64,000 nt of DNA. Source: Metallumcola ferriviriculae. Lineage in GTDB: Bacteria; Bacillota; JADQBR01. The number at the start of each line of letters is the position of its first letter. The stretch's first letter is position 1. Shown here in pieces: positions 3,679-17,447 of this stretch. The notes beneath the pieces were generated by a model that saw only the letters and a list, made by a program, of their open reading frames with translations, searched no databases and was not told the DNA's origin. A program made the translations under genes and the position numbers. Location: NCBI RefSeq assembly GCF_035573695.1, contig NZ_CP121694.1, positions 1,774,501 through 1,838,500 on the forward strand. The letters are read 5' to 3'.

Positions 3679-4118
3679 AACAAGCAGCTCAAGCCACCCA
3701 GCAGGAGTGGGCGCCTAAAGTTGTGGCGTTTTGCTGCAACTGGTGTGCGTATGCTGGAGCGGATTTAGCCGGTCTTAATCGCCTGCAGTATCCCCCGAAT
3801 GTACGGGTGATACGAGTACCGTGCTCCGGGCGGGTAAACCCGCAGTTTGTTATTCGTGCATTTCAACGTGGAGCTGACGCTGTTTTGGTAGCTGGTTGAC
3901 ACCCTGGTGACTGCCACTATGTTAGTGGCAATTATTTCACCCGGCGGCGCTATCTTTTAATGCAGCGTATGTTGGAATTTATCGGAATTGACCCCCAGCG
4001 GTTTCAGGCACGCTGGATTTCCGGTTCTGAAGCGGTAAAGTTTGCTGATACTATCGCCAAACTGACAGAACAAATAAAACCCTTGGGACCAAATAGGAAG
4101 TTGAGGGATGAAGTATGA
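3669..4118 (+). CDS. mvhD: MvhD/FlxD-type iron-sulfur subunit, selenocysteine-containing
   Basis: Small [2Fe-2S] electron-transfer protein linking HdrA to its electron-donating partner. The N-terminus has the family motif [12 protein letters not shown]. The TGA at 3897-3899 (residue 77) sits in LVAG-U-HPGDCHY, where the family has Cys (VAGCHPGDCHY). The same frame then continues for 72 more family-like residues to a TGA at 4116, giving 149 aa, the usual length. A perfect 8-bp hairpin follows the internal TGA at SECIS distance. The start overlaps the hdrA end and the end overlaps the next ATG (ATGA), so reading through the TGA is also what keeps the operon coupled. Confidence 0.9.
3912..3930 (+). 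promoter_or_regulatory. Candidate bacterial SECIS hairpin in mvhD
   Basis: TGCCACTA pairs perfectly with TAGTGGCA around a TGT loop. The loop begins about 20 nt after the UGA and contains G at position 2, matching the bacterial SECIS spacing and loop rule. It is the cleanest of the three hairpins in the window. Confidence 0.7.
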
Positions 4119-5005
4119 TTAACGTTCAGCAGTTACGCGACAGAGCGAAGGAATTGTTGGAGAGCGGGGAAGTAAAGTACGTATTCGGGTGGAGAAAGGG
4201 TACTTTCTGGTACCAATCCCCTCCGGTAATCATCAGTAAAGCTGAAGATGCCGATAAGTTGATATGGGACGAGTTTTGTCTTAATAATCTCAGTAAATAC
4301 CTGCTTGATTACAAAAATTTGGATGGTAAAATAGCCATATTTGTAAAAGGATGTGATTCCCGGGGGGTTAACCGTTTAATTCAGGATCAGCAGGTTAAGC
4401 GTGAAAGTGTCGTCTTAATAGGTTTGCCCTGCCCCGGCATGAAGGATCCACAGCTAGCTAGGGAAATGGGAGAGAGCAAACTCAATGAAGTTCCTAAAAT
4501 AGAAAAGTGTGCCCAGTGCTTGACCCCTAATCCCGTAGAGTATGATGAACTAATGGGCGATGAAGTAGCTGCGGGACTAGCTGTGGAAGAACGTTTTGTG
4601 AGAGTGCAAGATTTGGAAAGCAAATCTGCTGATGAAAAATATGAATTTTGGCAGCAACAGTATGATAAGTGCATTCGTTGTTTTGCCTGTCGTAATGTTT
4701 GTCCCGCCTGCAACTGCCGTGAATGCTGCTTTGACCAGAGTGAACCCGAATGGTTGGGTAAACGTGTGGTCACGGCAGAAAACCAATTTTTTGCTTTGAC
4801 CCGGGCGATGCATGTTGCCGGTCGCTGCATTGAATGTGGTGAATGTGAACGGGTGTGTCCCATGGATATTCCTATCATGAGTTTAAATAAAAAGATTATC
4901 AAGGATATCAATGGGCTTTTTGGTGAGTATGATGCGGGTGTAAATGTGGAGGATAAGCCTCCTCTTGGTCGCTTTGACGAGAATGACCCTGAAGAGTTCA
5001 TGTAG
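4115..5005 (+). CDS. 4Fe-4S dicluster protein of the Hdr-Flx complex (FlxC-like)
   Basis: Cytoplasmic iron-sulfur protein of 296 aa. The C-terminal half has two ferredoxin-like motifs, CIRCFACRNVCPACNC with extra Cys (about residues 187-205) and CIECGECERVCP (about 237). The N-terminal half contains KGCDSRGVNRL and GLPCPGM, as in hydrogenase/sulfite-reductase electron-transfer subunits. It starts inside the mvhD stop and is followed by two related genes. This position matches the flx genes that accompany hdrABC in sulfate reducers and fermenters. Which published Flx letter applies is inferred from order and domains. Confidence 0.75.
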   Translation: MINVQQLRDRAKELLESGEVKYVFGWRKGTFWYQSPPVIISKAEDADKLIWDEFCLNNLSKYLLDYKNLDGKIAIFVKGCDSRGVNRLIQDQQVKRESVVLIGLPCPGMKDPQLAREMGESKLNEVPKIEKCAQCLTPNPVEYDELMGDEVAAGLAVEERFVRVQDLESKSADEKYEFWQQQYDKCIRCFACRNVCPACNCRECCFDQSEPEWLGKRVVTAENQFFALTRAMHVAGRCIECGECERVCPMDIPIMSLNKKIIKDINGLFGEYDAGVNVEDKPPLGRFDENDPEEFM

Positions 5006-5028
5006 GGAGAAAGGAGGAGGTGTGAAAA

Positions 5029-6027
5029 ATGAAGATTATCAAGAGAGATAAGTTAAAAGACCTGTTGAACAGTTTTGCCAAGAATGCGCAAACCCTTGCT
5101 CCCGTTAAAGAAAACGATACAATAAAATTTCTTCCCTGGAAAGGGCAAGGAGAGATAGATTTAAGTCAAAACGCACTGCTGCCTCCCAAGGACTTGCTTT
5201 TTCCACAAACTGAGGTAATGTATCGCTATACAGACGGTGGTGTGCAGGGAGAAATTACCGATGTGGCTGCAGCTGCGGAAAGACAGGTGATATTTGGTAT
5301 TCGCCCTTGCGACGTCCGGAGTCTGACCATGATGGATGATGTGTTTATGACTAAAGGATACGAAGATGACTATTATAAAAGTAAGCGGGAAAATACTATT
5401 TTGATATCGCTTGGCTGTAATGAGCCCCAACCTACCTGCTTTTGTACTTCTATGGGCATTGACATGATGGAAGCTGACGGCGCGGATATTGTGATGTACG
5501 ATTTAGGTGAAAAATTGGCTTTAGAACCTAAAACTGACGCCGGCGAACAACTGCTAAACGATGTCGATGTATTGGAAGACGGTGCTGCCGAAAAGCCTGT
5601 GGCAAAGGAATGTCAACTGAAAGCAGACGCTGAAGGGTTGGCTGAGAAGCTGGCGCAAATGTTCCACCATTCCTATTGGGAGGATCTTAGTCGTACTTGC
5701 ATTGGCTGTGGTACCTGCACTTATCTTTGTCCTACATGTCATTGCTTTGATATTAGAAGAAAAAATATAGGTGAAGAAGGCTTCCAATTTCGCTGTTGGG
5801 ACTCCTGCATGTTTTCCGAATACACACGGATGGCAGGTGGTCATAATCCCAGGCCCTCAAAAAAAGAGCGGGTACGCAACAGATTTTTACACAAACTGCA
5901 GTATTTCCCTGAGCGTTACGGCAAAGTGGCCTGCGTGGGCTGTGGCAGATGTGTCGGTAAGTGTCCGGTAAATATTGACATTACCCGTATCATTGGGGAA
6001 CTGAGGGAGGTGTCTGTCGATGAGTAA
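5029..6027 (+). CDS. 4Fe-4S subunit, AsrA/sulfhydrogenase-beta type (FlxB-like)
   Basis: Predicted electron-transfer subunit of 332 aa. It shows FGIRPCDVRSLTMMD (about residues 90-104) and two C-terminal cluster motifs, CIGCGTCTYLCPTCHC (about 225) and CVGCGRCVGKCP (about 302), as in anaerobic sulfite reductase subunit A and NiFe sulfhydrogenase beta subunits. AAAGGAGGAGGTG precedes the ATG. It overlaps the next gene (6020) by eight bases. With the FAD/NAD-binding partner downstream it probably carries NADH-derived electrons to MvhD/HdrA. Confidence 0.75.
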   Translation: MKIIKRDKLKDLLNSFAKNAQTLAPVKENDTIKFLPWKGQGEIDLSQNALLPPKDLLFPQTEVMYRYTDGGVQGEITDVAAAAERQVIFGIRPCDVRSLTMMDDVFMTKGYEDDYYKSKRENTILISLGCNEPQPTCFCTSMGIDMMEADGADIVMYDLGEKLALEPKTDAGEQLLNDVDVLEDGAAEKPVAKECQLKADAEGLAEKLAQMFHHSYWEDLSRTCIGCGTCTYLCPTCHCFDIRRKNIGEEGFQFRCWDSCMFSEYTRMAGGHNPRPSKKERVRNRFLHKLQYFPERYGKVACVGCGRCVGKCPVNIDITRIIGELREVSVDE

Positions 6028-6862
6028 TAGTGTCGCAAAGCAATTAGAAGAACACCCATTGGTTCCTATGGTGGGAGAAGTTAGCAAAATTGTTGACGAG
6101 ACTCCCGATGTAAAGACGTTCCATATCTATTATGAACAGGGAAAACCGTTTACGCCAATGCCTGGGCAGGTTGCGATGCTGTCTTTATTATCAGTTGGAG
6201 AAGCAATGTTTTCCGTCAGAGGTGTGGATGAAAATCATTTGGAATTCAGTCTTAAGAAAACCGGTATTCTCACTGATGCCCTGCACGAAATCGAAGAAGG
6301 TCAAAAGGTGGGCGTTCGCGGTCCTTATGGGAATGGTTTCCCGATAGATTTTTGTAAAGGTAAGGATATGCTCTTCATTGGTATGGGTATCGGCCTTGCT
6401 CCGGTGCGTACAATGATTTATCATTGTATAAATAACCGAGAAGACTATGGCAAAATGCAGATTATTTACGGTGCACGTTCACCACAGGATTTAGTGTTTA
6501 AGGAAGATTTGTTTGAAAACTGGCATAAGGTTCCCAATTGTGGTGTAGATGTTACGGTGGATAGAGGCGATGATGACTGGGACGGGAACGTTGGTTTTGT
6601 TCCCCCATTTGTTGAAGGACTGGCGCCAAACCCGGAAAATACTGTGGCAATCATTTGTGGACCGCCAATAGGTATCAAATTCACACTGCCTGTATTAGAA
6701 AAATTAGGTTTTACTAATGACCAGATTATTACGACGTTGGAAATGCGGATGAAATGCGGTATAGGTAAATGCGGCCGTTGTAACATAGGCAGCTGCTATG
6801 TCTGCCTGGATGGCCCGGTATTTAGCTTAGAACAGCTCAAGGTAATGCCTGATGAATATTAA
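6020..6862 (+). CDS. FAD/NAD(P)-binding oxidoreductase subunit (FlxA-like)
   Basis: Ferredoxin-reductase-type flavoprotein of 280 aa expected to oxidise NADH. The FAD region contains KVGVRGPYGNGFP (about residue 94). The nucleotide region starts at FIGMGIGLAPVRTM (about 119) and includes IICGPP (about 210). The end has the [2Fe-2S]-binding Cys cluster MKCGIGKCGRCNIGSCYVC typical of the PyrK/AsrB/HydG family. It is the last gene of the hdr operon and is followed by a strong terminator. With the upstream genes it supports an NADH-dependent Flx-Hdr complex; no hydrogenase large subunit is present. Confidence 0.8.
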   Translation: MSNSVAKQLEEHPLVPMVGEVSKIVDETPDVKTFHIYYEQGKPFTPMPGQVAMLSLLSVGEAMFSVRGVDENHLEFSLKKTGILTDALHEIEEGQKVGVRGPYGNGFPIDFCKGKDMLFIGMGIGLAPVRTMIYHCINNREDYGKMQIIYGARSPQDLVFKEDLFENWHKVPNCGVDVTVDRGDDDWDGNVGFVPPFVEGLAPNPENTVAIICGPPIGIKFTLPVLEKLGFTNDQIITTLEMRMKCGIGKCGRCNIGSCYVCLDGPVFSLEQLKVMPDEY

Positions 6863-6876
6863 AGTATTTTTTTGCA

Positions 6877-6901
6877 CCCCGGCTAAGCCGGGGATTTTTC
6901 T
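6877..6901 (+). terminator. Rho-independent terminator of the hdr-flx operon
   Basis: CCCCGGC pairs with GCCGGGG around a TAA loop, followed by ATTTTTCTTT. It lies 15 nt past the last stop codon. Confidence 0.9.
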
Positions 6902-7006
6902 TTAACAGTTGTATTAAAGGAGCCACGATTTGTCCTCACATTCGAAAGAATAAAATCTTTTGCGAATGATACAATAATGACGTAACCAAAAAGCGGGGTG
7001 TAAAAT

Positions 7007-8011
7007 ATGCTGGAAATTGGATTGCTCCTTCTCAGTTTAGGGATAATTTTGCTTGGTGCAGAAGTCTTCACCAATGGTGTAGAATGGCTAGGAAAAAAAT
7101 TAAACCTCTCTGAGGGCGCGGTGGGAAGTATCCTAGCTGCTGTGGGCACGGCGCTTCCAGAGACGATGATTCCGGTGATCGCCATATTGTTTGGACCGGG
7201 AGAAGAGGGGCATGACATTGGTATTGGTGCCATCCTTGGTGCTCCTTTTATGCTTGGAACACTGGCTTTTTTCCTAGTAGGTGTTGCCGCAATAGTCTTC
7301 AAAGGACGACGCAAGAATACCGATTTCATGAAGGTGGATATCTCCACCATGTCTAGAGATCTAAGCTTTTTCTTAATCGTCTACAGTTTAGCAGTGCTAG
7401 CGGCCTTCCTACCCACGCACAATATGAAGCTTCTGGTGATTATTTTTCTGGTCGGTGCTTACGGTTTCTATGTTTGGCAGACGCTTACCAGGGAAGATGA
7501 TTTGGGTGAAGATCATGACTTAAGTCCACTGTTTTTTAGCAGGAAAAGTCCGGACCCTTCGCTGAACAAAGTGTTGCTTCAGGTATTCACGGCCTTAGTT
7601 CTAATAATTATCGGTGCTAAAGTGTTTGTTGGCAGCATTGAACATCTGGCAGGAATTATCGGTATACCTCAATTTGTATTAGCATTAATTATTGCCCCGG
7701 TTGCCACAGAGTTACCGGAAAAGTTTAACAGTATTATCTGGGTTAGCAAAGGAAAAGATACGTTAGCATTGGGTAATATTACCGGAGCGATGGTTTTTCA
7801 AAGCTCGTTAATTCCGGCATTGGGTATTGCCCTAACTGATTGGAATTTAACTTTTGCTGCCATTATGAGCGTAATTTTGGCATTGGCTTCAGCACTGGTT
7901 GTTTATCTACAGTTAAAAATAAGGAAAGTAATTACGCCTTATTCTCTAATGACCGGCGGTGTTTTTTATTTAATATTTGTTGTGCTGGTCGTGACAGGCG
8001 TAATACAGTAA
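7007..8011 (+). CDS. Na+/Ca2+ exchanger family (CaCA) membrane protein
   Basis: Integral membrane cation exchanger of 334 aa made of about ten hydrophobic segments. The two alpha repeats are recognisable: GAEVFTNG...AVGTALPETM in the first half (about residues 18-58) and APVATELPEKFNS in the second (about 228). The acidic loop (about residues 160-190) separates the halves. A GGGTGT site precedes the ATG. It stands alone between two terminators. The transported ion cannot be told from sequence. Confidence 0.85.
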   Translation: MLEIGLLLLSLGIILLGAEVFTNGVEWLGKKLNLSEGAVGSILAAVGTALPETMIPVIAILFGPGEEGHDIGIGAILGAPFMLGTLAFFLVGVAAIVFKGRRKNTDFMKVDISTMSRDLSFFLIVYSLAVLAAFLPTHNMKLLVIIFLVGAYGFYVWQTLTREDDLGEDHDLSPLFFSRKSPDPSLNKVLLQVFTALVLIIIGAKVFVGSIEHLAGIIGIPQFVLALIIAPVATELPEKFNSIIWVSKGKDTLALGNITGAMVFQSSLIPALGIALTDWNLTFAAIMSVILALASALVVYLQLKIRKVITPYSLMTGGVFYLIFVVLVVTGVIQ

Positions 8012-8144: not shown

Positions 8145-8588
8145 ATGATAATCATCGATCCTTACAAGGCGGGGATGTTTGAAAAAAACCCTTATGCAAA
8201 AAAACGCGACATTCTTGGTTCGCTGATAGTGGTATTGGATGGAAGACTTGATGAGCGGGGTTTACAGCTGATTGCGCCAATATCGAGAGCGCTGTTAGCA
8301 GGCGAAATCCATGAACTGATTTTAACTGACGAAGAGGGCGCGGGGCCCAACAAAAAGGTAAATAAAATCGCTTATCTAGGTTTTTTCGAAGTCAGCCAAA
8401 GCGGAGTAATGGTTACCGGTGATGATATATATGTTGCCCGTCAAAAAATTGGCCGGGTGGCCGGTTTTGATATTACGCACATGCCTAACCATCTGAACAT
8501 TGTGATATACAGCGATGAGAGAACCAGCGGCCTGGAAAAAGGCCTTGAGCTGGGAACAGAATTTAAATGCAGTAAACCGAACTCTTAG
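8145..8588 (+). CDS. Conserved protein of unknown function, first gene of the PLP/B12 cluster
   Basis: A 147-aa soluble protein without membrane segments or cofactor motifs I recognise. Alternating hydrophobic strands (SLIVVLDGRL, HELILTDEEGAG, LNIVIYSDE) suggest a compact alpha/beta fold. A strong AAGGAGG site sets the ATG. It sits about 50 nt ahead of a RidA-like gene and a PLP enzyme, so it probably belongs to the same operon and may serve the same pathway. I do not assign a function. Confidence 0.65.
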   Translation: MIIIDPYKAGMFEKNPYAKKRDILGSLIVVLDGRLDERGLQLIAPISRALLAGEIHELILTDEEGAGPNKKVNKIAYLGFFEVSQSGVMVTGDDIYVARQKIGRVAGFDITHMPNHLNIVIYSDERTSGLEKGLELGTEFKCSKPNS

Positions 8589-8637
8589 TTCGGTTCTGAT
8601 AACACTAAGCAGTAAAATTGAAAGGAGGATGAGTCAA

Positions 8638-9096
8638 GTGTCATATGAAGAGAAAATCAAAGAATTGGGACTGACAATTCCCGAGGCGCCTAAACCGGTG
8701 GCCGCTTACGTACCCGCGGTTAAGGTGGATAGCTATGTCTATACTTCAGGACAGATTCCTTTTGTGAATGGCGAATTGAAATTCAAAGGCAAAGTAGGAA
8801 GAGACATTAAGCTTGAACAGGGCTATGAGGCCGCCAAAACCTGCGCCTTAAATTGTTTGGCAGTGATTAAAGGGCAGATTGGTTCTTTAGACAATATCGA
8901 CCGTATTGTGAAGGTGACTGGATTTGTCAATAGTGCCCCTAACTTCACCGACCAACCAAAGGTGATAAACGGTGCCTCCGAGCTGCTGGGAGATATTTTC
9001 GGTGATAAAGGGCAGCATGCTCGGGCTGCAGTGGGAGTAAATGAATTGCCGGTGGATGCAGCAGTAGAAGTAGAAATGGTGGTCAAAATTAAATAA
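8638..9096 (+). CDS. RidA/YjgF-family protein
   Basis: A 152-aa member of the RidA family, whose characterised members hydrolyse reactive enamine/imine intermediates released by PLP enzymes. Family-like features are YTSGQIPFVNGEL near residue 38, the central VKVTGFVNSAPNF, and ARAAVGVNELPVDAAVEVEMV at the C-terminus, although the usual R in the R-x-x-V region appears as A-R-A-A-V. AGGAGG is 9 nt before the GTG at 8638; the ATG at 8629 sits directly on the Shine-Dalgarno site, so GTG is preferred. Lying between an unknown gene and a PLP enzyme, it suggests imine chemistry in this pathway. Confidence 0.8.
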   Translation: MSYEEKIKELGLTIPEAPKPVAAYVPAVKVDSYVYTSGQIPFVNGELKFKGKVGRDIKLEQGYEAAKTCALNCLAVIKGQIGSLDNIDRIVKVTGFVNSAPNFTDQPKVINGASELLGDIFGDKGQHARAAVGVNELPVDAAVEVEMVVKIK

Positions 9097-9118
9097 ACTA
9101 TATTAGGAGGTAATACAA

Positions 9119-10579
9119 ATGGCGCACAAATATAAATTTCAACTGTATAAAGATTTACTTGCAAACGTTGCTAACATTTACGGGGATGCAAAAAAGGCTG
9201 CTGATGAAATCGGTATTCCGAAAGAGATTAGAGGGAAATTCGGTATGACTGGGGCTATATCCGGATGTCCTGCCCCCTTACGTAAGGACATTTTGGAAGC
9301 CAGCGAAAAAGGAGCCAAGGAAGTCATTCCCTTAGCGAAGTTGATGGAAGAAATTCGTGAACTTGTGAAAGATGTTTACGGAGATGAATATGATGCGGCA
9401 GCTGTAAGCACCTGCGAGGCTGGAATTTGGGCCAGCTTTGACACATTATTCACGCCGCCGATGCAGGGGCGAGGTGATAACTATCGGGCTCGTTACATTG
9501 CACCGTATGAGAAGCACTTGCACCACCAAGGCAGTTATGGCCGCCCATTTCCTGGACGCTTTAAAGATATTTTTGCCGACAGAGGCTCAACGCCGGGTGA
9601 ACTCGGATTTTACGGTAAAAGGCAGAATAACACAGATACGGTAATTGTACCGTTGGAAGGCGCTGATTACAGCGTTCACGGTATCAAATACCATCCGGTA
9701 CCACTATTAACAGGAGTGGACCCGGAAGCATCGATAGAAAAATTGGCACTCCATGCAGAAATACATGAAAATATGCTCACCGGCTTTACTTCTCTTGGCT
9801 ATGAAACACCGGGTTATGGTTACGGAGCCAAGGATGAAGACGGTACTCCGCTTCTGCAAAAATATATAGCCGATTTGGCTCACTCCTATGATATTCCTTA
9901 TGTGGTAGATAACGCTTGGGGACTACCTTTCGTCGGGCATGACCCCAGAAAAAGCGGTGCTGATGTGGTTATTTACAGCATGGATAAAGCAACAGGAGCT
10001 GCAACGAGCGGTTTGATAATTGGTAAAGAAGAATATATGGTACCAATTAGGCGCGCGTTGGGATTGCATGGCGATCGCTGGGGTACTACCGCTTCTTACG
10101 GTAAGGCAGCATATGTAGCCTTTGACGCGGGTAAAGAGGCTCTACTTACCCAGGTCCAAGCCCTTAAGGTTCTCAAAGACAATCCGGAAGTGCTGACTAA
10201 ACCCGTGGACGACCTTGAACGCATCGTGAAAGAAGAATTCGATAAGATAAACCCCAAACTTAGAGATGGTATCTTAATTTCTAAGTCCTATAATTCTACG
10301 GCGGTGGAGGTAAATTACGAGGGTACATGGAAGAATGGTCAAATGGGAATTCCCATTTTCTCTATAGAAGATATGTACTCAGGTACTAACCTGATGCAAA
10401 CAGGTATGGGTCAGTTGGGCGTTATTCCCACTGTGGCGTACGATGGTAACATCTATATTTCCACAGGCCTCGGTACTACTGACGAAGATGGTAATCTGAT
10501 TGAAGATGTAGCCCGCTATGGCGTCAAGGCCCAGGTAAAGCTGATAGAAATTATTTGCCATTACGCTGGATTACTGTAG
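9119..10579 (+). CDS. Fold-type-I PLP-dependent enzyme, substrate unknown
   Basis: A 486-aa soluble enzyme with the layout of the aspartate-aminotransferase/SepCysS/decarboxylase superfamily. YVVDNAWGLP (about residue 261) supplies the ring-binding Asp. SMDKATGAATSG contains the likely Schiff-base Lys at about residue 290. The protein is longer at the N-terminus than typical aminotransferases, with a Gly/Pro-rich section near residues 41-50. TAGGAGG precedes the ATG. Close neighbours are RidA-like, flavoprotein and permease genes. It could be a lyase, decarboxylase or transferase; the sequence alone does not decide. Confidence 0.75.
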   Translation: MAHKYKFQLYKDLLANVANIYGDAKKAADEIGIPKEIRGKFGMTGAISGCPAPLRKDILEASEKGAKEVIPLAKLMEEIRELVKDVYGDEYDAAAVSTCEAGIWASFDTLFTPPMQGRGDNYRARYIAPYEKHLHHQGSYGRPFPGRFKDIFADRGSTPGELGFYGKRQNNTDTVIVPLEGADYSVHGIKYHPVPLLTGVDPEASIEKLALHAEIHENMLTGFTSLGYETPGYGYGAKDEDGTPLLQKYIADLAHSYDIPYVVDNAWGLPFVGHDPRKSGADVVIYSMDKATGAATSGLIIGKEEYMVPIRRALGLHGDRWGTTASYGKAAYVAFDAGKEALLTQVQALKVLKDNPEVLTKPVDDLERIVKEEFDKINPKLRDGILISKSYNSTAVEVNYEGTWKNGQMGIPIFSIEDMYSGTNLMQTGMGQLGVIPTVAYDGNIYISTGLGTTDEDGNLIEDVARYGVKAQVKLIEIICHYAGLL

Positions 10580-10607
10580 GAAAATAGTAAAGGGGGACTT
10601 AAACGAA

Positions 10608-11894
10608 ATGAGCAAAATTATAATAGTTGGGGGTGGATGGGCCGGCTCTGCTGCCGGCCTGGCCGCCCAAAAAGCTGGTGCTCAGGATGTAACCGTTTTA
10701 GAACGGACAGATATGCTGCTGGGAACCGGTTTAGTAGGCGGCATAATGAGAAACAACGGTCGCTTTACGGCCACTGAAGAGATGCTGGAAATGGATGGCG
10801 GAGACCTGTTTCAAGTTACTGATGAGAATTCTCGTCATAAAAACATTGATTTTCCGGGTCATAAACATGCAAACCTATATGATGTGGCCAAGATTGAACC
10901 GGCGGTTAAAAAACGGCTGGAAAAGGCTGGCATAAATGTGAAAACCAACACCCGTATTAAAGGGGTAGAGACCGACGGCAAGAAAATTGTCGCGGTTGTT
11001 GCGGAAAATGGTGACAGATATGAAGCGGATGTCTTCGTGGAAGCTACCGGAACCTCGGGCCCCCCCGGAAACTGCTCAAAATATGGTAATGGCTGCGCCA
11101 TGTGTATCTATCGCTGTCCTACCTTCGGGCCGCGTATCAGTGTTGCGGCGAAAGCCGGGGCAGAAGAATTTATGGGTAAAAAAGCAGACGGATCTATTGG
11201 TGCCATGAGCGGTTCTTGCAAACTTCATAAAGAATCCCTCAGCGAGGATATTGTCCATCAATTGAATGAAACAGGAGTGGCGGTAATTCCAATTCCAAAG
11301 GAGTTACAAAAAGGAGAAGGTATGCTGGCTACAAAGGCCTGCCAGCAGTATGCATTGAAAGAATTTGCGGAAAACATCATCCTCTTGGATACCGGACACG
11401 CTAAATTAATGTCTCCATTCTATCCACTTGATATGCTGCGCAGGATACCCGGATTTGAAAATGCAAGGTACGAAGATCCATATGCAGGTGGTATCGGTAA
11501 TTCCATGCGCTACCTAGCAATTTCTTATAGGGACAATGCACTGAAAGTGGAAGGACTGGATAATCTGTTTTGCGGCGGGGAAAAGGCTGGTCTGTTAGTA
11601 GGACATACAGAGGCTATCGTCACCGGAACTTTGGCGGGCCATAATGCTGTGCGCCACGCTGTTGGTAAAGAGCTGCTTTCTCTTCCTGACAGCTTAGCTG
11701 TTGGTGACGCAATTAATTATGTAGGCCGGCAGATGCGCTCCGAAGAGGGTATAACTAAAAAGTATACTTTTTCCGGTGCAGTCTACTTTAATCGCATGAA
11801 AGAACAAAATCTTTACACTACCGATAAGGCCGAGATTAAGAAAAGAGTTAGTGACGCCGGAATGACCAACGTGTTCAGCCAAAAGGTGATGTAA
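10608..11894 (+). CDS. FAD-dependent oxidoreductase (GidA-like fold) with Cys-rich insert
   Basis: A 428-aa soluble flavoprotein. IIIVGGGWAGSAAGLAAQ at the N-terminus is a dinucleotide-binding motif, VFVEATGTSGP (about residue 144) is the second FAD contact, and GLDNLFCGGEKAG (about 318) is the third. Between residues about 155 and 170 lies NCSKYGNGCAMCIYRCP, four Cys that could bind an Fe-S cluster or zinc. GGGGG precedes the start. It follows the PLP enzyme by 28 nt and presumably oxidises or reduces an intermediate of the same pathway; its electron partner is unknown. Confidence 0.75.
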   Translation: MSKIIIVGGGWAGSAAGLAAQKAGAQDVTVLERTDMLLGTGLVGGIMRNNGRFTATEEMLEMDGGDLFQVTDENSRHKNIDFPGHKHANLYDVAKIEPAVKKRLEKAGINVKTNTRIKGVETDGKKIVAVVAENGDRYEADVFVEATGTSGPPGNCSKYGNGCAMCIYRCPTFGPRISVAAKAGAEEFMGKKADGSIGAMSGSCKLHKESLSEDIVHQLNETGVAVIPIPKELQKGEGMLATKACQQYALKEFAENIILLDTGHAKLMSPFYPLDMLRRIPGFENARYEDPYAGGIGNSMRYLAISYRDNALKVEGLDNLFCGGEKAGLLVGHTEAIVTGTLAGHNAVRHAVGKELLSLPDSLAVGDAINYVGRQMRSEEGITKKYTFSGAVYFNRMKEQNLYTTDKAEIKKRVSDAGMTNVFSQKVM

Positions 11895-11913
11895 TTTTAA
11901 AGGAGGTTTCTGA

Positions 11914-13311
11914 ATGCCTCAATTAGGTATTCTTCACTGGATATATGTATTTGTAGTACTAGTAGTATTGGTGGTAATGGTAATGCGCCGGGACACGGTA
12001 CTTCCTTGCCTGCTGGGACTATTTTTGTTCGGCTGGGTTGCCAAAGGCGGTCTGGTAGGTGCAATATCCACGGTGTTTAATGCATTGATTGCTTCAGGCG
12101 GTCAATTTTGGAGCATTATTGTGGTTATTTCCTTGGTTGTAGCTATGTCCAAAGCCCTTTCGGATGTGGGTTCGGATTATCTGATCATGCAGCCTGCGGC
12201 CAAATTAATGGTCAATGCCGATGTAGCTTTTTGGGTATTGGGAGTGGGAATGCTGGTGGTTTCCTGGTTTGTTTGGCCAACCCCGGCGGTGGCGCTCATT
12301 GGTGCCATTATTTTGCCGGTGGCCATTCGGGCCGGTTTGCCCAGTATAGGGGCAGCTATTTCCATGAATATTTTCGGGCATGGGTTAGCCCTGTCCACGG
12401 ATTATATTATCCAAGGTGCACCAGGATTAACTGCTGCCTCAGCCGGTTTTCCCAGTGATGTAGGTGCTTTGGGAGTAATAAGACCCAGTATTCCGCTTTT
12501 CATCACCATGGCTTTGGTTACCACCACGTTAGCTTACCTAACCACCAAAAAGAGCATTCGGGAGGAACACGAAAAGCATGAGGAAGAACGGCAGCGCTTT
12601 GCCGAAGAAGAGGCAAAAAAAGAGAGTCAGACTTTTACCTTATCCGCTTACCTGACGGCGATACTGGTTCCTATTGCTTTCGGTCTGGATGTAGTCGCCT
12701 TACTTGTGTTTGATTTAAAAGGCGGCGATGCTACTGCCTTGGTTGGCGGTACAGCAGCACTTGTGATGACTGTCGGTGCTATGTCCCAGTTTGGGGTGGA
12801 TTCCTTAGAAAAGATAACTGATTATATCCGGGATGGATTTATGTTTGGTATCAAAATTTTTGCCCCGGTTATAGTCATTGGTGGTTTCTTTTTCCTGGGG
12901 TCTGAAGAGATTGCCCCACAAATTTTAGGTGTGGAGAAGTTTCCAGGATTACTTACGGATTTGGGTAATGCTCTAGCTAGTGTGGTTCCTTTATCAAAAA
13001 TACCTATTGCTTTTATTCAATTGACCATTGGCGCCATTACGGGTCTGGATGGTTCCGGTTTTTCGGGACTGCCATTGGTGGGATCGCTGTCGCAGACTTT
13101 TAGTACTGCGGCAGGGGTGGATAAAGGTACTTTAGCGGCCTTAGGTCAATTTTCCTCAGTTTGGATTGGCGGTGGTACCGTAGTACCTTGGGGCTTGATA
13201 CCTGTAGCTGCTATTTGTGGAGTCGAACCCATGGAATTGGCTCGGAAAAATTTCTGGCCGGTAATAATAGGTTTGATAGTCACAACCATCGTAGCGATAG
13301 TTATCATGTAA
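11914..13311 (+). CDS. GntP/CitM-like secondary transporter
   Basis: Polytopic membrane permease of 465 aa with roughly twelve hydrophobic segments. A charged cytoplasmic loop rich in E, K and R (about residues 211-237) divides two halves. Small-residue motifs such as GLDGSGFSGLPLVG (about 374) and IGGGTVVPWG (about 418) resemble the ion transporter superfamily that includes gluconate and other organic-anion permeases. AAAGGAGG precedes the ATG. As the last gene of the 8.1-13.3 kb operon it is the likely importer of the pathway's substrate, perhaps an amino or hydroxy acid. Confidence 0.7.
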   Translation: MPQLGILHWIYVFVVLVVLVVMVMRRDTVLPCLLGLFLFGWVAKGGLVGAISTVFNALIASGGQFWSIIVVISLVVAMSKALSDVGSDYLIMQPAAKLMVNADVAFWVLGVGMLVVSWFVWPTPAVALIGAIILPVAIRAGLPSIGAAISMNIFGHGLALSTDYIIQGAPGLTAASAGFPSDVGALGVIRPSIPLFITMALVTTTLAYLTTKKSIREEHEKHEEERQRFAEEEAKKESQTFTLSAYLTAILVPIAFGLDVVALLVFDLKGGDATALVGGTAALVMTVGAMSQFGVDSLEKITDYIRDGFMFGIKIFAPVIVIGGFFFLGSEEIAPQILGVEKFPGLLTDLGNALASVVPLSKIPIAFIQLTIGAITGLDGSGFSGLPLVGSLSQTFSTAAGVDKGTLAALGQFSSVWIGGGTVVPWGLIPVAAICGVEPMELARKNFWPVIIGLIVTTIVAIVIM

Positions 13312-13312
13312 T

Positions 13313-13355
13313 AAAGAATGGTCCGTCCAACCAATTTGGACGGACCATTCTTTTA
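13313..13355. terminator. Long bidirectional terminator between convergent genes
   Basis: An 18-bp perfect stem (AAAGAATGGTCCGTCCAA and its complement) around a five-base loop, A-rich on the left and T-rich on the right. It separates the plus-strand permease gene from the minus-strand gene ending at 13380, so it can serve both. Confidence 0.9.
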
Positions 13356-13379
13356 ATATATTTTTTAATATGTTCTTGT

Positions 13380-14156
13380 TCAAATAAATAAATTATTGTT
13401 TAAAAGAGAAATTTTTAAAGATGGGTGAAGTTTGATGCTTTTTATACGTTTTTTCTGTCTATGATAGTTTTCCAGAATTATCAACTGATTATAGGAAGTA
13501 AGTGTGGTGTTATTTCTGGGGACTGTTTCCAGCTGTTTGTCGAGCAATGGAGGTAGAGTATCCTCTACCTGGATGGCAGCATGTTTAAAATTAGAAACAA
13601 GTGCTTTAATCAATAATGTACCGTAACCTGAAGCGATAATGAGTGTAGAATCCTGATAACTTAATCTGTCCAGCCCCAGTATAGCTGGCTGGCTGGAATA
13701 ACTGATCTGCATGGATGGATAATTCTGCAGGTAATATTTCTCCCGTATTGATGTGACATTAAGTGCTACTGTAATTAAATTAAGCTCTTTGTTTATATTC
13801 ACAATCACACCGGGTATTTTTAAATATACCGGTGGGTCCTGATGTATCACGTGTACTGAAGAAAATAAGCTTAGATCTGCTATTGTTTCCGAGTGTGTGA
13901 ACGCAAAATAAAGCACACCGTTTGCCGGTAAATAAAAATTTTGGGCGTGCTGCAGATAACCTTTAGCAACTATCGGTGCTTCTATGGGATCACGTTTTTC
14001 CAAAAAGATGCACCTTCCCGGCCAATGACAGTCACAGGTGTCCACTTCCCCTAATTGACCGCAAAGCGGACATTGAGAAACTTCCGTAAGAATGCACGGG
14101 CAATAGGTTTTATAATGCGGGCAAAGGTCAGAAGGTGATATATTTTCAATTTGCAT
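13380..14156 (-). CDS. Cys-rich protein of unknown function, possible flavodoxin-reductase-like fold
   Basis: A 258-aa protein I do not recognise. The first 50 residues hold nine Cys in spaced groups (CPHYKTYCPC, CPLCG, CDCHWPGRC), suggesting Fe-S or zinc sites. The middle is beta-rich. IIASGYGTLLIKALV near residue 173 recalls the nucleotide-binding turn of ferredoxin-reductase-like electron-transfer subunits, but no full motif is present. GGGAGGATCC lies ahead of the ATG at 14156. It sits in reverse orientation between the permease and the B12-mutase genes, divergent from the latter. Confidence 0.6.
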   Translation of the reverse strand: MQIENISPSDLCPHYKTYCPCILTEVSQCPLCGQLGEVDTCDCHWPGRCIFLEKRDPIEAPIVAKGYLQHAQNFYLPANGVLYFAFTHSETIADLSLFSSVHVIHQDPPVYLKIPGVIVNINKELNLITVALNVTSIREKYYLQNYPSMQISYSSQPAILGLDRLSYQDSTLIIASGYGTLLIKALVSNFKHAAIQVEDTLPPLLDKQLETVPRNNTTLTSYNQLIILENYHRQKKRIKSIKLHPSLKISLLNNNLFI

Positions 14157-14284
14157 AAAATGGATCCTCCCTATTGTTTTTTATCAATTTATGCACTTAA
14201 TAAACAGGATGTGAAACTTAACGCATAATTGACCTGTCTCAATTTCATAATAAAAATGCGATAACAGAAAGGAGAGAGCTTAAT

Positions 14285-14521
14285 TTGGAAATTCTTGACC
14301 ATGTAATGGATGCATTAGATGTAGAAACCTTTCTAATTTGTGATTCTGAAGAAGAAGGCAGGGCTTTAGCATTAGAGCTGATAAAGGAAATGGGGTTTAA
14401 GGATTTTGATATAGTAAATTTGGATTATCAGGGCGTTGGTGCCCGGGTGCGAGTACGGGCTTATATTCATAGGTCCGGTGATAAATATGGCTGGCTGCAG
14501 CTGCCGAAAGAGGTGAACTGA
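14285..14521 (+). CDS. Small acidic protein preceding the B12-dependent mutase
   Basis: A 78-aa soluble protein beginning with TTG behind AAAGGAGAG. It has a helix-strand pattern (ALALELIKEMGFKDFDIVNLD) and a C-terminal beta section, with no cofactor motif. Its stop is separated by one base from the next ATG, so the two are co-translated. By position it may be a small subunit of the mutase, as glutamate mutase S and ornithine aminomutase OraS are for theirs, but its sequence does not resemble either. Function unknown. Confidence 0.65.
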   Translation: MEILDHVMDALDVETFLICDSEEEGRALALELIKEMGFKDFDIVNLDYQGVGARVRVRAYIHRSGDKYGWLQLPKEVN

Positions 14522-14522
14522 A

Positions 14523-16352
14523 ATGTCTAAAAAAAAGCAAGTACTGTTGGCACCGCTGGACCCTGTTCATGATATAGGTCTAAAAATGATTCGCCGCGGT
14601 TTGGAACACGGCGGGCATAAGACCCATCTGTTACCGCCTGATTTACCTGCGGAAGAAATTATTCAAGAAATCATTAATCGTGATGCGGAGACCGTCTTGA
14701 TTAGCCGTACCCTGGGATATGGCGTTGCGGAATTGTTAGCTCGTTTTGTAGATTTGGTAGATGCCGCAGGCCTTCGAGATAAAGTAACTTTGGGTATCGG
14801 CGGCATGGCAATCCGCCCGGAACTAGCTGCCGAATTAGGGTTTGATGCAGGTTTTGGACCCGGAACTACGGTAGAAGAGGCAGTTGCTTTTGTAGAAGGC
14901 AAAGAATTTAAGGCAGCGAAGCAAGGCGTTGAAAAGAAAAAAGTGGATATAACCAGCGGTTATTCCTATCAATTCATTAATGAGGGACTTGGCCGAAAAA
15001 TCGAACAAGTAGCGGAACTCATTATACAATGGGCGGAAAATAAAACTAGCCCCGGGGTGCGCCGAGCGGTTGTTAGAGATGAACTGTGGGACGTAGAGCG
15101 GTGGCGGAATCGTCAGGGTAACTCTGAATTTGATAAAGAATACCCGCAACTGTGTGGTGAACAACCTAGGAATTATTATTTTAAAGGCGAGCTGCATCCT
15201 AAAACCAGGAGATTTACCAGGGAAGAAGTTATTGCTTTGGAAAAATTTATACACGAAACGAAGCCTCGTGTTATGCTCAACCGCTTGCAGCATACTAAGT
15301 CGCGTCCTGTAGTTTTTAATCAGTATGGTACTGGTTGCCCATTTATGGATATTGGCCATATTAAGGTTAGCGAGGCATGGGGTGCCGACGGGGTGGTTCA
15401 CTTTGATCCTTCGTGGGGGGCAAGAACAGAGGGATTTTTTGATGGTTTTTTAACCCACCAAGAGGATGGCACGGTAATTACCCCGGCCAATTTAAACCGA
15501 ATACATGGAGGGTTAGAACCATCGACGCTTTGGCAGGTGAGGGCACATCGGGGGTTAAATACCCCGGAAACCGTTGTGCTGGGCGCAAAAATCGGTGCGG
15601 ATTTAACCAAGATTAATATTTGTTATGGTTCTTTGGGGGCCGGGACAGACCCGGAACGTTTGACAGTGGATGGCTATCATGCCATTCGTTACGCAGCCAA
15701 ATATAAAATGCCTTTTGATGTGGTTACCAACGAAGAACTGGCTGGTGTACCGGCACACAAGGCCTTTGCCGGCATGTTAATTGTAAGTGCTTTGGCGGTT
15801 AAACTGGGAGGCAGGCCTATGCTTCAGCCCCTCTTTGCTTATTCGCCGGAAGCAATGATTAGTGAACAGATGGAGGATAACTATGTAGATTTTAATGCGG
15901 CAAAGATTTACGCTTTAAAGAGCATAATTGATGCGCCTATTTGGCCGGGTGCGCCTATCGGGTTTTTAACTCAAACAGAAGATAGGGTACAATCGTCCAC
16001 TACTACAGCCCTGCACGCTTGTTTGGCCTCTTCCTTAGGGGTAGATGCCATCTCTATCGCTTCTTCGGATGAAGCGTATTCAGGTGGGCCCATTGCAGTG
16101 CCATCCCGAACCGATACACTAAAAGCGGTTGGTGAAGGGTTTAGGTTTTTTGGCGGTACCGGAATCAGCCCTTCGGAAAGGGCGAAAATCTGGGCGGAGG
16201 AATTGACAGAGAGTATCGAAGCGGTAGTGGACCAAGTAATTGATACAGGTGATTTTGTAGAGGCGCTCTATCAAGGGGTTTTGGGCAATCGGGAAGAGGG
16301 GGCTTATCCTGGTCGTGCCGGCAAAGGCACAGTCCGGCAAGTGGAGAGTTAG
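14523..16352 (+). CDS. Cobalamin-binding mutase/aminomutase-like protein
   Basis: A 609-aa protein. Residues about 6-130 form a B12-binding domain: DPVHDIG supplies His16 as likely lower axial ligand, SRTLGYG follows near 61, and GIGGMAI near 91 lines the nucleotide tail. The usual DxHxxG is shifted, with Pro two residues before His and Asp three before. The remaining part (from about 190) looks like a TIM barrel as in glutamate mutase E and related enzymes, with TNEELAG, YSPEAMISEQ and TEDRVQSSTTTALHA segments. It therefore probably catalyses an adenosylcobalamin radical carbon-skeleton or amino shift. The substrate is not inferable. It is coupled to the small gene before it and followed directly by an NTPase. 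Confidence 0.7.
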   Translation: MSKKKQVLLAPLDPVHDIGLKMIRRGLEHGGHKTHLLPPDLPAEEIIQEIINRDAETVLISRTLGYGVAELLARFVDLVDAAGLRDKVTLGIGGMAIRPELAAELGFDAGFGPGTTVEEAVAFVEGKEFKAAKQGVEKKKVDITSGYSYQFINEGLGRKIEQVAELIIQWAENKTSPGVRRAVVRDELWDVERWRNRQGNSEFDKEYPQLCGEQPRNYYFKGELHPKTRRFTREEVIALEKFIHETKPRVMLNRLQHTKSRPVVFNQYGTGCPFMDIGHIKVSEAWGADGVVHFDPSWGARTEGFFDGFLTHQEDGTVITPANLNRIHGGLEPSTLWQVRAHRGLNTPETVVLGAKIGADLTKINICYGSLGAGTDPERLTVDGYHAIRYAAKYKMPFDVVTNEELAGVPAHKAFAGMLIVSALAVKLGGRPMLQPLFAYSPEAMISEQMEDNYVDFNAAKIYALKSIIDAPIWPGAPIGFLTQTEDRVQSSTTTALHACLASSLGVDAISIASSDEAYSGGPIAVPSRTDTLKAVGEGFRFFGGTGISPSERAKIWAEELTESIEAVVDQVIDTGDFVEALYQGVLGNREEGAYPGRAGKGTVRQVES

Positions 16353-16353
16353 A

Positions 16354-17409
16354 ATGTCCTTTTCATCCAGAGTCATAGGTATTGCAGGGACCGCAAAAAA
16401 CACGGGTAAAACTACTGCCACTAACTTTATTTTAAAAGAAATGCATAAAAGAAAACTAACCCCTGCTTTGACAAGTATTGGCTATGACGGGGAACGGCTG
16501 GATAATGTGACCGGACTTCCTAAACCCAGGGTACCCGTTGTGCCGGGAACCCTGGTAGCGGTTGCCCATCGTTGCCTGCCTGTCAGTACGGCCCAGGTAG
16601 AAGTGATAGAAGAGACTGGGATTAGTACTCCGCTGGGTCCGGTGGTTTTGGGTATTATAAAGAAAGCCGGACAGATGGTCGTGGCGGGACCCAATAAAAG
16701 CAGCAGCTTACGAGTTATTTTGGATAAACTGACCGTATATAAGCCCCATCTGATATTGGTGGATGGGGCATTAAATCGAATAGCGCCCATGGTAGAGACC
16801 CAGGGATTTATTTTGGCAACTGGGGCATCGCGCAGTTCAGACATTACCCGCCTGGCTTATGAGGCGCACAGTCTAGACTACTTGTTTCGATTGCCGCTTT
16901 ATCAAGGTGATTGGTATAATTACATTACCTTGGTAGGTGGTGATCAGATAAGTTTTGATTTTAGTTCAGTGTTTACTCGCAGTCAGGTAGATAGAATCAT
17001 TGCAAAATTCAGCCCTGCCGTAGAGAAAATTATTATTCCGGGTGTTGTCAGGGAGGAATTATGGAAGGAACTAGCTGGTGTTATATCTGCCCAAGGAGCC
17101 GGCGTTACAATTGCCGTGGCTGACCCGATAAAACTGGCCTTAGGGGGGAGTGTGGGAAACCTTCATCGTCTTTTTGAGGGATTGGGGGAGCGGGGAGTAG
17201 CAATTAAAGTTAAACGCCCATTGCCATTGTTGGCGATTTCCGTGAACCCATTTTATCCTAAGTATCGTTTTGAGGCTAATGACTATCATCCTGCGTACGT
17301 TGATGCAGAGCGGTTACATAAAGCGGTGGCGCGGGCGGTAACGGTGCCCGTAGCCGATGTGATGAGAAATGGCGGGTTGTTGTTAGAAGCCTTGGGGATA
17401 AAGGAATAG
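16354..17409 (+). CDS. P-loop NTPase next to the B12 mutase, possible reactivase or chaperone
   Basis: A 351-aa soluble protein with Walker A GTAKNTGKTT at residues about 10-19, followed by acidic segments such as LILVDGALN. I chose the ATG at 16354, two bases after the mutase stop and behind GTGGAGAG. The tight coupling suggests it loads or reactivates the cofactor, as MeaB/MutL/KamBC-type NTPases do for other B12 mutases. That role is inference from position; the sequence is not one I recognise as a named reactivase. Confidence 0.6.
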   Translation: MSFSSRVIGIAGTAKNTGKTTATNFILKEMHKRKLTPALTSIGYDGERLDNVTGLPKPRVPVVPGTLVAVAHRCLPVSTAQVEVIEETGISTPLGPVVLGIIKKAGQMVVAGPNKSSSLRVILDKLTVYKPHLILVDGALNRIAPMVETQGFILATGASRSSDITRLAYEAHSLDYLFRLPLYQGDWYNYITLVGGDQISFDFSSVFTRSQVDRIIAKFSPAVEKIIIPGVVREELWKELAGVISAQGAGVTIAVADPIKLALGGSVGNLHRLFEGLGERGVAIKVKRPLPLLAISVNPFYPKYRFEANDYHPAYVDAERLHKAVARAVTVPVADVMRNGGLLLEALGIKE

Positions 17410-17420
17410 GCAGTATTAAG

Positions 17421-17447
17421 AAAAGCCCGGTGTTTTAACGCACCGGG
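17421..17447 (-). terminator. Terminator favouring the minus-strand gene
   Basis: CCCGGTG pairs with CACCGGG. On the minus strand the stem runs into GCTTTTC; on the plus strand no T-run follows. It lies between two convergent genes. Confidence 0.6.

Follow-up and report, generated by a model that had tools for sequence, protein, structure and literature searches.

What do a cobalamin (B12)-dependent mutase and a pyridoxal 5'-phosphate (PLP) enzyme do in each other's company? The question is raised by a locus in a 64,000-nucleotide stretch of the Metallumcola ferriviriculae genome (contig NZ_CP121694.1, positions 1,774,501 to 1,838,500; the whole stretch is referred to here as the window). The locus is composed of two plus-strand operons with one reverse-strand gene in between, one operon carrying the PLP enzyme and the other the mutase (Table 1). 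Our analysis makes it probable that the mutase is a radical B12 enzyme devoid of PLP, obligately paired with the PLP enzyme and a DUF6917 protein in a two-module system of amino-acid or amine metabolism. A more specific version, which we put forward tentatively, is that of a new adenosylcobalamin (AdoCbl) radical mutase, which would use the lysine-aminomutase scaffold minus PLP for an unrecorded rearrangement in an undescribed amino-acid pathway, the PLP chemistry having been handed over to another enzyme family, co-inherited and partnered with DUF6917.

The Pfam match in the mutase is limited to the B12 domain (PF02310), and Pfam scans gave no match to the GlmE barrel (PF06368). The B12 domain matches the KamE and OraE profiles of NCBIfam and aligns with KamE at E=2e-25 in hhalign. 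The family models are matched far below their cut-offs, with 54.7 bits against 280 for Lys_5_6_beta, in the B12 region only, and 48 bits against 800 for the OraE model NF040743; weak matches to MtgC and MtbC also appear. The barrel aligns with KamD/OraE at an hhalign score of 71 (maximum 26 in 25 column-shuffled controls), and its matches to the GlmE and methylmalonyl-CoA mutase (MCM) profiles are marginal (GlmE hhalign probability 14). In addition, an AlphaFold2 model of the mutase made from 40 homologues (predicted local distance difference test score, pLDDT, 87) has the alpha subunit of lysine 5,6-aminomutase (5,6-LAM; 1xrs_A, E=1.1e-16) as its best Foldseek match in the PDB, followed by ornithine 4,5-aminomutase (OAM) and glutamate mutase (1cb7_B, 7e-11). 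The mutase combines the KamD-type TIM barrel and the KamE-type base-off B12 domain of the 5,6-LAM/OAM structural class, and by sequence and predicted fold it is a rearranged member of this class. A B12-domain tree places the mutase family in one clade (100/99) outside KamE, OraE, GlmS, MCM, and the corrinoid methyltransferase proteins, each of which forms a clade of its own; the tree supports the mutase clade itself and leaves its position among the other groups unresolved. A mutase of known substrate type is ruled out by this tree together with the Pfam/NCBIfam cut-offs and the profile comparisons.

The two gene products flanking the mutase belong to the same class of enzymes. The small subunit resembles the N-terminal dimerization domain of KamE, to which it appears homologous (hhalign 43.4 over 37 columns; maximum 17.2 in 60 column-shuffled controls). 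Because the barrel, B12-domain, and small-subunit profiles match KamD/KamE, all parts of KamDE are, by these comparisons, kept in a new arrangement, with the B12 domain ahead of the barrel and the dimerization domain separate. The NTPase scores 209.0 bits over the full length of the KamB model NF052386, the curated cut-off being 210. Its P-loop, KNTGKT, occurs in 46 of 46 KamB-like proteins and is the same as in true KamB; the generic Walker A expression matches just two of the 46, the motif being deviant. By analogy with KamDE, the presence of this ATPase would imply that its partner is an AdoCbl enzyme prone to inactivation and reactivated in the same manner. The first-pass annotation of the window had described the mutase, small subunit, and NTPase as matching nothing known, a view superseded by these homologies. 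It was right on other points: its PLP enzyme, RidA, flavoprotein, permease, mutase, small subunit, and NTPase are all found, the shifted B12 His motif that it reported is real (DPVHD is fixed in all 54 N-terminally complete homologues), and its suggestion that the mutase may stand apart from known substrate groups agrees with the separate clade in the tree.

In 5,6-LAM and OAM, PLP is anchored by a B12-domain lysine (Lys144 of the beta subunit and Lys629, respectively), and in 5,6-LAM it is contacted by Arg184, Ser189, Ser238, Arg268, Asn299, and Tyr263 of the barrel (PMC3958899). The anchor position lies 11 residues past the cobalt-ligating His and is aligned with no gap; it is Lys in 27/27 KamE and 4/4 OraE, whereas the mutase family has Leu (53) or Met (1) in all 54 sequences. 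In the barrel, Arg184 is replaced by Asp295 and Arg268 by Ala/Gly373 under five alignment settings, and both arginines are fixed in 15/15 KamD. Around Ser189 the phosphate loop is either missing or replaced, and the counterparts of Ser189, Ser238, and Asn299 are replaced or gapped in every aligner, with disagreement on the exact partners. The sole PLP contact kept is the stacking Tyr263, as Y368. The mutase family has new invariant barrel residues, including R301, R340, H342, R343, K363, H293, D295, and E405. Loss of the anchor lysine together with most of the PLP pocket is the most surprising feature of the locus, and it makes it most likely that the mutase works without PLP.

We consider it unlikely that the mutase has stayed an aminomutase of 5,6-LAM/OAM type that needs both PLP and B12 to convert some amino acid, with PLP on K363 or K413 or bound noncovalently. 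The common fold and the KamB-like reactivase would suit such an enzyme, as would the position of the stacking tyrosine near the invariant K363, and a substitute amino-shift enzyme is not apparent among the neighbors. These arguments are opposed by the absence of the anchor lysine from 54 of 54 sequences, by the two arginine replacements, which all aligners return, and by the altered Ser189 phosphate loop.

Pairing of the mutase with the second module is seen across genomes. Profiles of the mutase, the PLP enzyme, and DUF6917 were searched in 398 genomes spread over the host phylum, and found in 38, 40, and 39 of them, respectively. All 38 mutase genomes own both other components, with hypergeometric p values of 4e-51 and 2e-52 for the overlaps, uncorrected for relatedness. 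The two PLP-positive genomes devoid of the mutase contain a more distant PLP-enzyme relative (G051) and a PLP-enzyme fragment plus DUF6917 (G386). Neighborhoods were counted at 59 loci, comprising the window locus and those of public genomes. The small subunit is near the mutase at 58 loci, the PLP enzyme at 51, the KamB-like ATPase at 48, and DUF6917 at 40, nearly always on the same strand. Partners absent from a locus were recovered elsewhere in the genome for DUF6917 (11/11), the PLP enzyme (8/8), and the KamB family (13/13, although a true KamB may be present as well in some of these genomes). Gene order is reshuffled among relatives, and in G302 and in Fermentithermobacillaceae the DUF6917–PLP enzyme pair and the mutase operon stand at separate sites. 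The first-pass annotation had proposed one uncharacterized system with the look of amino-acid catabolism, which would fall if the two halves never occurred together; the 38 mutase genomes bear its proposal out. It had overlooked DUF6917 as an obligate partner, as well as the loss of the PLP site.

The co-occurrence, the locus counts, and the genome-wide recovery of partners define a core of small subunit, mutase, KamB-like ATPase, PLP enzyme, and DUF6917, with frequent accessories near the mutase: a HTH_12-FCD regulator (38 of the 59 loci), the flavoprotein (36), RidA (33), and the permease (17). The flavoprotein and permease, earlier listed as parts of the system, are present at the window locus, but neither is exclusive or obligate. 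The flavoprotein family occurs in 113 of the 398 genomes, namely 36 of the 38 mutase genomes and 77 others, which rules it out as a diagnostic core part; since its family is wider than the mutase system, the flavoprotein was probably recruited. In mutase-free genomes its gene often adjoins ScpAB/DacF/SpmAB/RluB or NCX genes.

The second module is centered on a PLP enzyme of its own family. Its Schiff-base lysine was found by pattern in 41 of 43 members. It matches the D-glucosaminate-6-phosphate ammonia-lyase (DgaE) model TIGR01437 at 45.1 bits over 63 residues only (cut-off 385), and it has no close relative, the nearest folds to its AlphaFold2 model being those of SelA, SepCysS, and SufS. 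The DUF6917 alignment contains an invariant G-x-D-x-x-H-x-PNH-x-N motif. RidA keeps the catalytic-arginine motif R-x2-V-x-LP in 24/24 sequences, as in the RidA/YjgF family, in keeping with an enamine or imine as the product of the PLP enzyme. An invariant C-x6-C-x2-C-x3-C set in the flavoprotein (37/37) may supply Fe–S ligands.

To find clues to the substrate, 33 extra loci of unlinked PLP-enzyme or DUF6917 copies were inspected. In some genomes these related copies adjoin peptidases (M55, M20, M19, M24) and amino-acid genes, and the context includes an acetolactate-synthase-like thiamine diphosphate (TPP) enzyme (L158, L201), a pyrroline-5-carboxylate dehydrogenase (L201), and an aspartate dehydrogenase (L156). 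The attempt to read a substrate from these contexts failed; only the TPP enzyme with the regulator, in two lineages, recurs across unrelated lineages. In L158 and L201, from two unrelated genomes, DUF6917 and the TPP enzyme are accompanied by a regulator that is likewise of the HTH_12-FCD type. At L201, a true L-glutamate gamma-semialdehyde dehydrogenase (TIGR01236, 782 bits) separates DUF6917 from the TPP enzyme. In the open-access literature searched (subscription journals being outside the scope), DUF6917 appears in no paper, and searches with related terms found no description of the system.

The named hosts include Sporomusa ovata, S. malonica, Heliobacterium chlorum, Heliorestis acidaminivorans, Desulfovirgula, Thermosediminibacter, and Fervidicola, and metagenome-assembled genomes (MAGs) of Treponema, Candidatus Adiutrix, Delongbacteria, and Bacteroidetes also carry the system. 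This range bears on a biosynthetic role, somewhat less probable again than a PLP-retaining mutase, in which the system would make a modified amino acid or an envelope or spore component in spore-formers and other anaerobes. The loci often lie within housekeeping blocks (ScpAB-DacF-RluB, mre genes), the hosts include the phototroph H. chlorum and acetogens (Sporomusa), the D-aminopeptidase DppA is nearby in one lineage, and the permease is merely optional, all of which would agree with biosynthesis. However, RidA, the permease, and the dedicated regulator look catabolic, and the system also occurs in the Treponema, Bacteroidetes, and Delongbacteria MAGs.

It is very improbable that the B12 domain and TIM barrel together make up a corrinoid methyltransferase or a sensor instead of a radical mutase. 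B12 domains are also used in corrinoid methyltransferase systems, the HD-I-G residues resemble corrinoid-protein motifs, and there are the weak MtgC and MtbC matches; but the B12 domain lies outside the methyltransferase clade, the barrel resembles KamD in both profile and fold, and a KamB-like reactivase and a subunit like the KamE N-terminus are typical of the radical aminomutase class. That the two operons are unrelated neighbors, as their separate transcription units and the opposite-strand gene between them might suggest, has next to no probability and is already refuted by co-occurrence, the near-identical phylogenetic profiles of the mutase and PLP enzyme/DUF6917, even where unlinked, ruling out a chance neighborhood.

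Several points weigh against a PLP-less mutase in a two-module system. PLP might sit in an unforeseen place, for example as a Schiff base at K363, five residues before Y368, which is the main alternative. Sequence identity between the barrel and KamD is only ~20%, so the mappings of S238, N299, and S189 vary by aligner. RidA and the flavoprotein are not adjacent to the mutase at every locus, the flavoprotein is shared with mutase-free genomes, and the paralogue contexts are too varied to single out one pathway. The case is built from genes, sequences, and predicted models.

PLP-free rearrangements have precedents in glutamate mutase and ethanolamine ammonia-lyase. In our proposal, the first module (small subunit, mutase, and KamB-like ATPase) would be an AdoCbl mutase descended from the 5,6-LAM/OAM class. 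AdoCbl homolysis would set off a 1,2-rearrangement that does without PLP, in an amino acid or amine-derived acid bound by residues that have become invariant in this family (R301, R340, H342, R343, K363, and H293 among them), and the ATPase would reactivate the mutase by exchanging damaged cofactor. The second module (DUF6917 and the SelA/DgaE-like PLP enzyme) may carry out a separate PLP step before or after the mutase. The PLP enzyme may give off an enamine or imine to be hydrolyzed by RidA, the flavoprotein may accept the electrons of a linked redox reaction, and transport of substrate or product may fall to the permease.

The AdoCbl radical mutase reactions known so far are few, and each defines one metabolic route. 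The mutase clade is present in about one tenth of the sampled genomes of the phylum, including those of the cultured Sporomusa and Heliobacterium. If our reading is correct, these anaerobes would possess an unrecognized amino-acid route, and a PLP-less lysine-aminomutase scaffold would provide a natural test of the role of PLP in such enzymes. The system gives a first functional context to DUF6917, the unnamed PLP-enzyme family, and the unclassified permease.

Table 1 Features of the locus, with positions in the window.
Feature	Position	Strand	Remarks
Operon A	8145-13311	+	DUF6917, RidA-like, PLP enzyme, GidA-like flavoprotein, permease
DUF6917 protein, 147 aa	8145-8588	+	PF21891, E=6.6e-46
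RidA/YjgF-like imine-enamine deaminase	8632-9096	+	PF14588, PF01042
Fold-type I PLP enzyme, 486 aa, own family	9119-10579	+	Schiff-base Lys K290 in [YF][SA]MDKA
GidA/TrmFO-like FAD protein	10608-11894	+	PF01134
Membrane permease, unclassified family, optional part	11914-13311	+	
Intrinsic terminator closing operon A after the permease	13313-13353	+	18-pair stem
Cys-rich PRK05802-like protein between the operons	13380-14156	-	NF004470, 45 bits
Operon B	14285-17409	+	Small subunit, B12 mutase, KamB-like NTPase
Small subunit, 78 aa	14285-14521	+	TTG start after AGGAGA
B12 mutase, 609 aa	14523-16352	+	N-terminal base-off B12 domain (residues 1-~130) fused to KamD-like TIM barrel
KamB-like reactivating ATPase	16354-17409	+	NF052386; deviant P-loop KNTGKT
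Terminator-like stem 3' of the KamB-like gene and operon B	17426-17447	-	Strand as listed

The most likely start of the NTPase is ATG 16354, not GTG 16315; this ATG sits one base past the mutase stop, with GGAGAG upstream. For the permease family, Pfam and PDB searches gave no match, and an Rfam scan for riboswitches gave none across the window. The reverse-strand gene between the operons is weakly similar to PRK05802, which is sulfide/dihydroorotate dehydrogenase-like. It sits in the same divergent position next to the small-subunit gene in L037, L039, and L044, and a relative adjoins the small subunit in L198; its part in the system is uncertain.

Two families show irregular genes. In Sporomusa ovata DSM 2662 (SOV_4c), the mutase frame is split into open reading frames of 264 and 333 aa within a full-length DNA match (L097:10001-11822), by frameshift, by sequencing error, or as a real split gene. 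In G053, G013, G128, G257, G095, G369, G283, and G316, flavoprotein-family matches that otherwise run full length are interrupted by one or two in-frame stop codons (TAA/TAG/TGA), possibly a two-part gene or decay. In Thermosediminibacterales, a second copy of this family is preceded by an unassigned protein of 320-330 aa (L066:13924-15267, L063:10144-11451, L099:13966-15294).

Three iron-sulfur/flavin genes and, after them, a sodium/calcium-exchanger-like gene occupy window positions 4115-8011, directly 5' of the system. The counterpart of this block in other Clostridia carries the flavoprotein gene alone (L174, L175, L178), which suggests that the system was inserted at this site. The host genome (3.72 Mb, single contig) also contains a true lysine-fermentation cluster with KamD, KamE, and KamB (L045, 3243000-3258000). 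This set looks complete, with Kce-/Kdd-like genes and an amidohydrolase immediately 5' of KamD. Moreover, the GlmE gene of the host sits at another locus, and five PF01642 genes are found elsewhere and none at the mutase locus. With these genes in separate places, the mutase locus adds to those systems and is not a version of them.

Compared with KamDE/KamB, the new system has a homologous B12 domain, TIM barrel, dimerization domain, and KamB-type ATPase. In KamDE, however, the barrel forms the alpha subunit, separate from a beta subunit of dimerization and B12 domains, whereas here the B12 domain is fused to the barrel and the dimerization-like subunit of 78 aa is free. The new mutase also lacks the PLP-anchor lysine and most PLP contacts, and its locus has no kdd or kce neighbors. 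OraS/OraE belongs to the same fold class (3kow, 3kp1) and likewise has a small subunit as partner, but its B12 domain is C-terminal and carries the PLP lysine Lys629, while that of the new mutase is N-terminal and lacks it. GlmES is likewise a PLP-free AdoCbl mutase, the third in the fold ranking; it differs by its PF06368 barrel and GlmL-type reactivase, neither of which is matched in the new system. The PLP enzyme shares fold type I and a similar local lysine region with DgaE, SelA, and SepCysS, but it is ~10-17% identical in fold alignments and has a conserved N-terminal half of its own within its 486 aa. Similarly, the flavoprotein has the GidA-type FAD fold of MnmG and TrmFO, but it falls far under both model cut-offs and forms a separate family marked by its invariant cysteines. 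The scaffold of the system is known; its arrangement, the missing PLP site, and the set of partners appear new.

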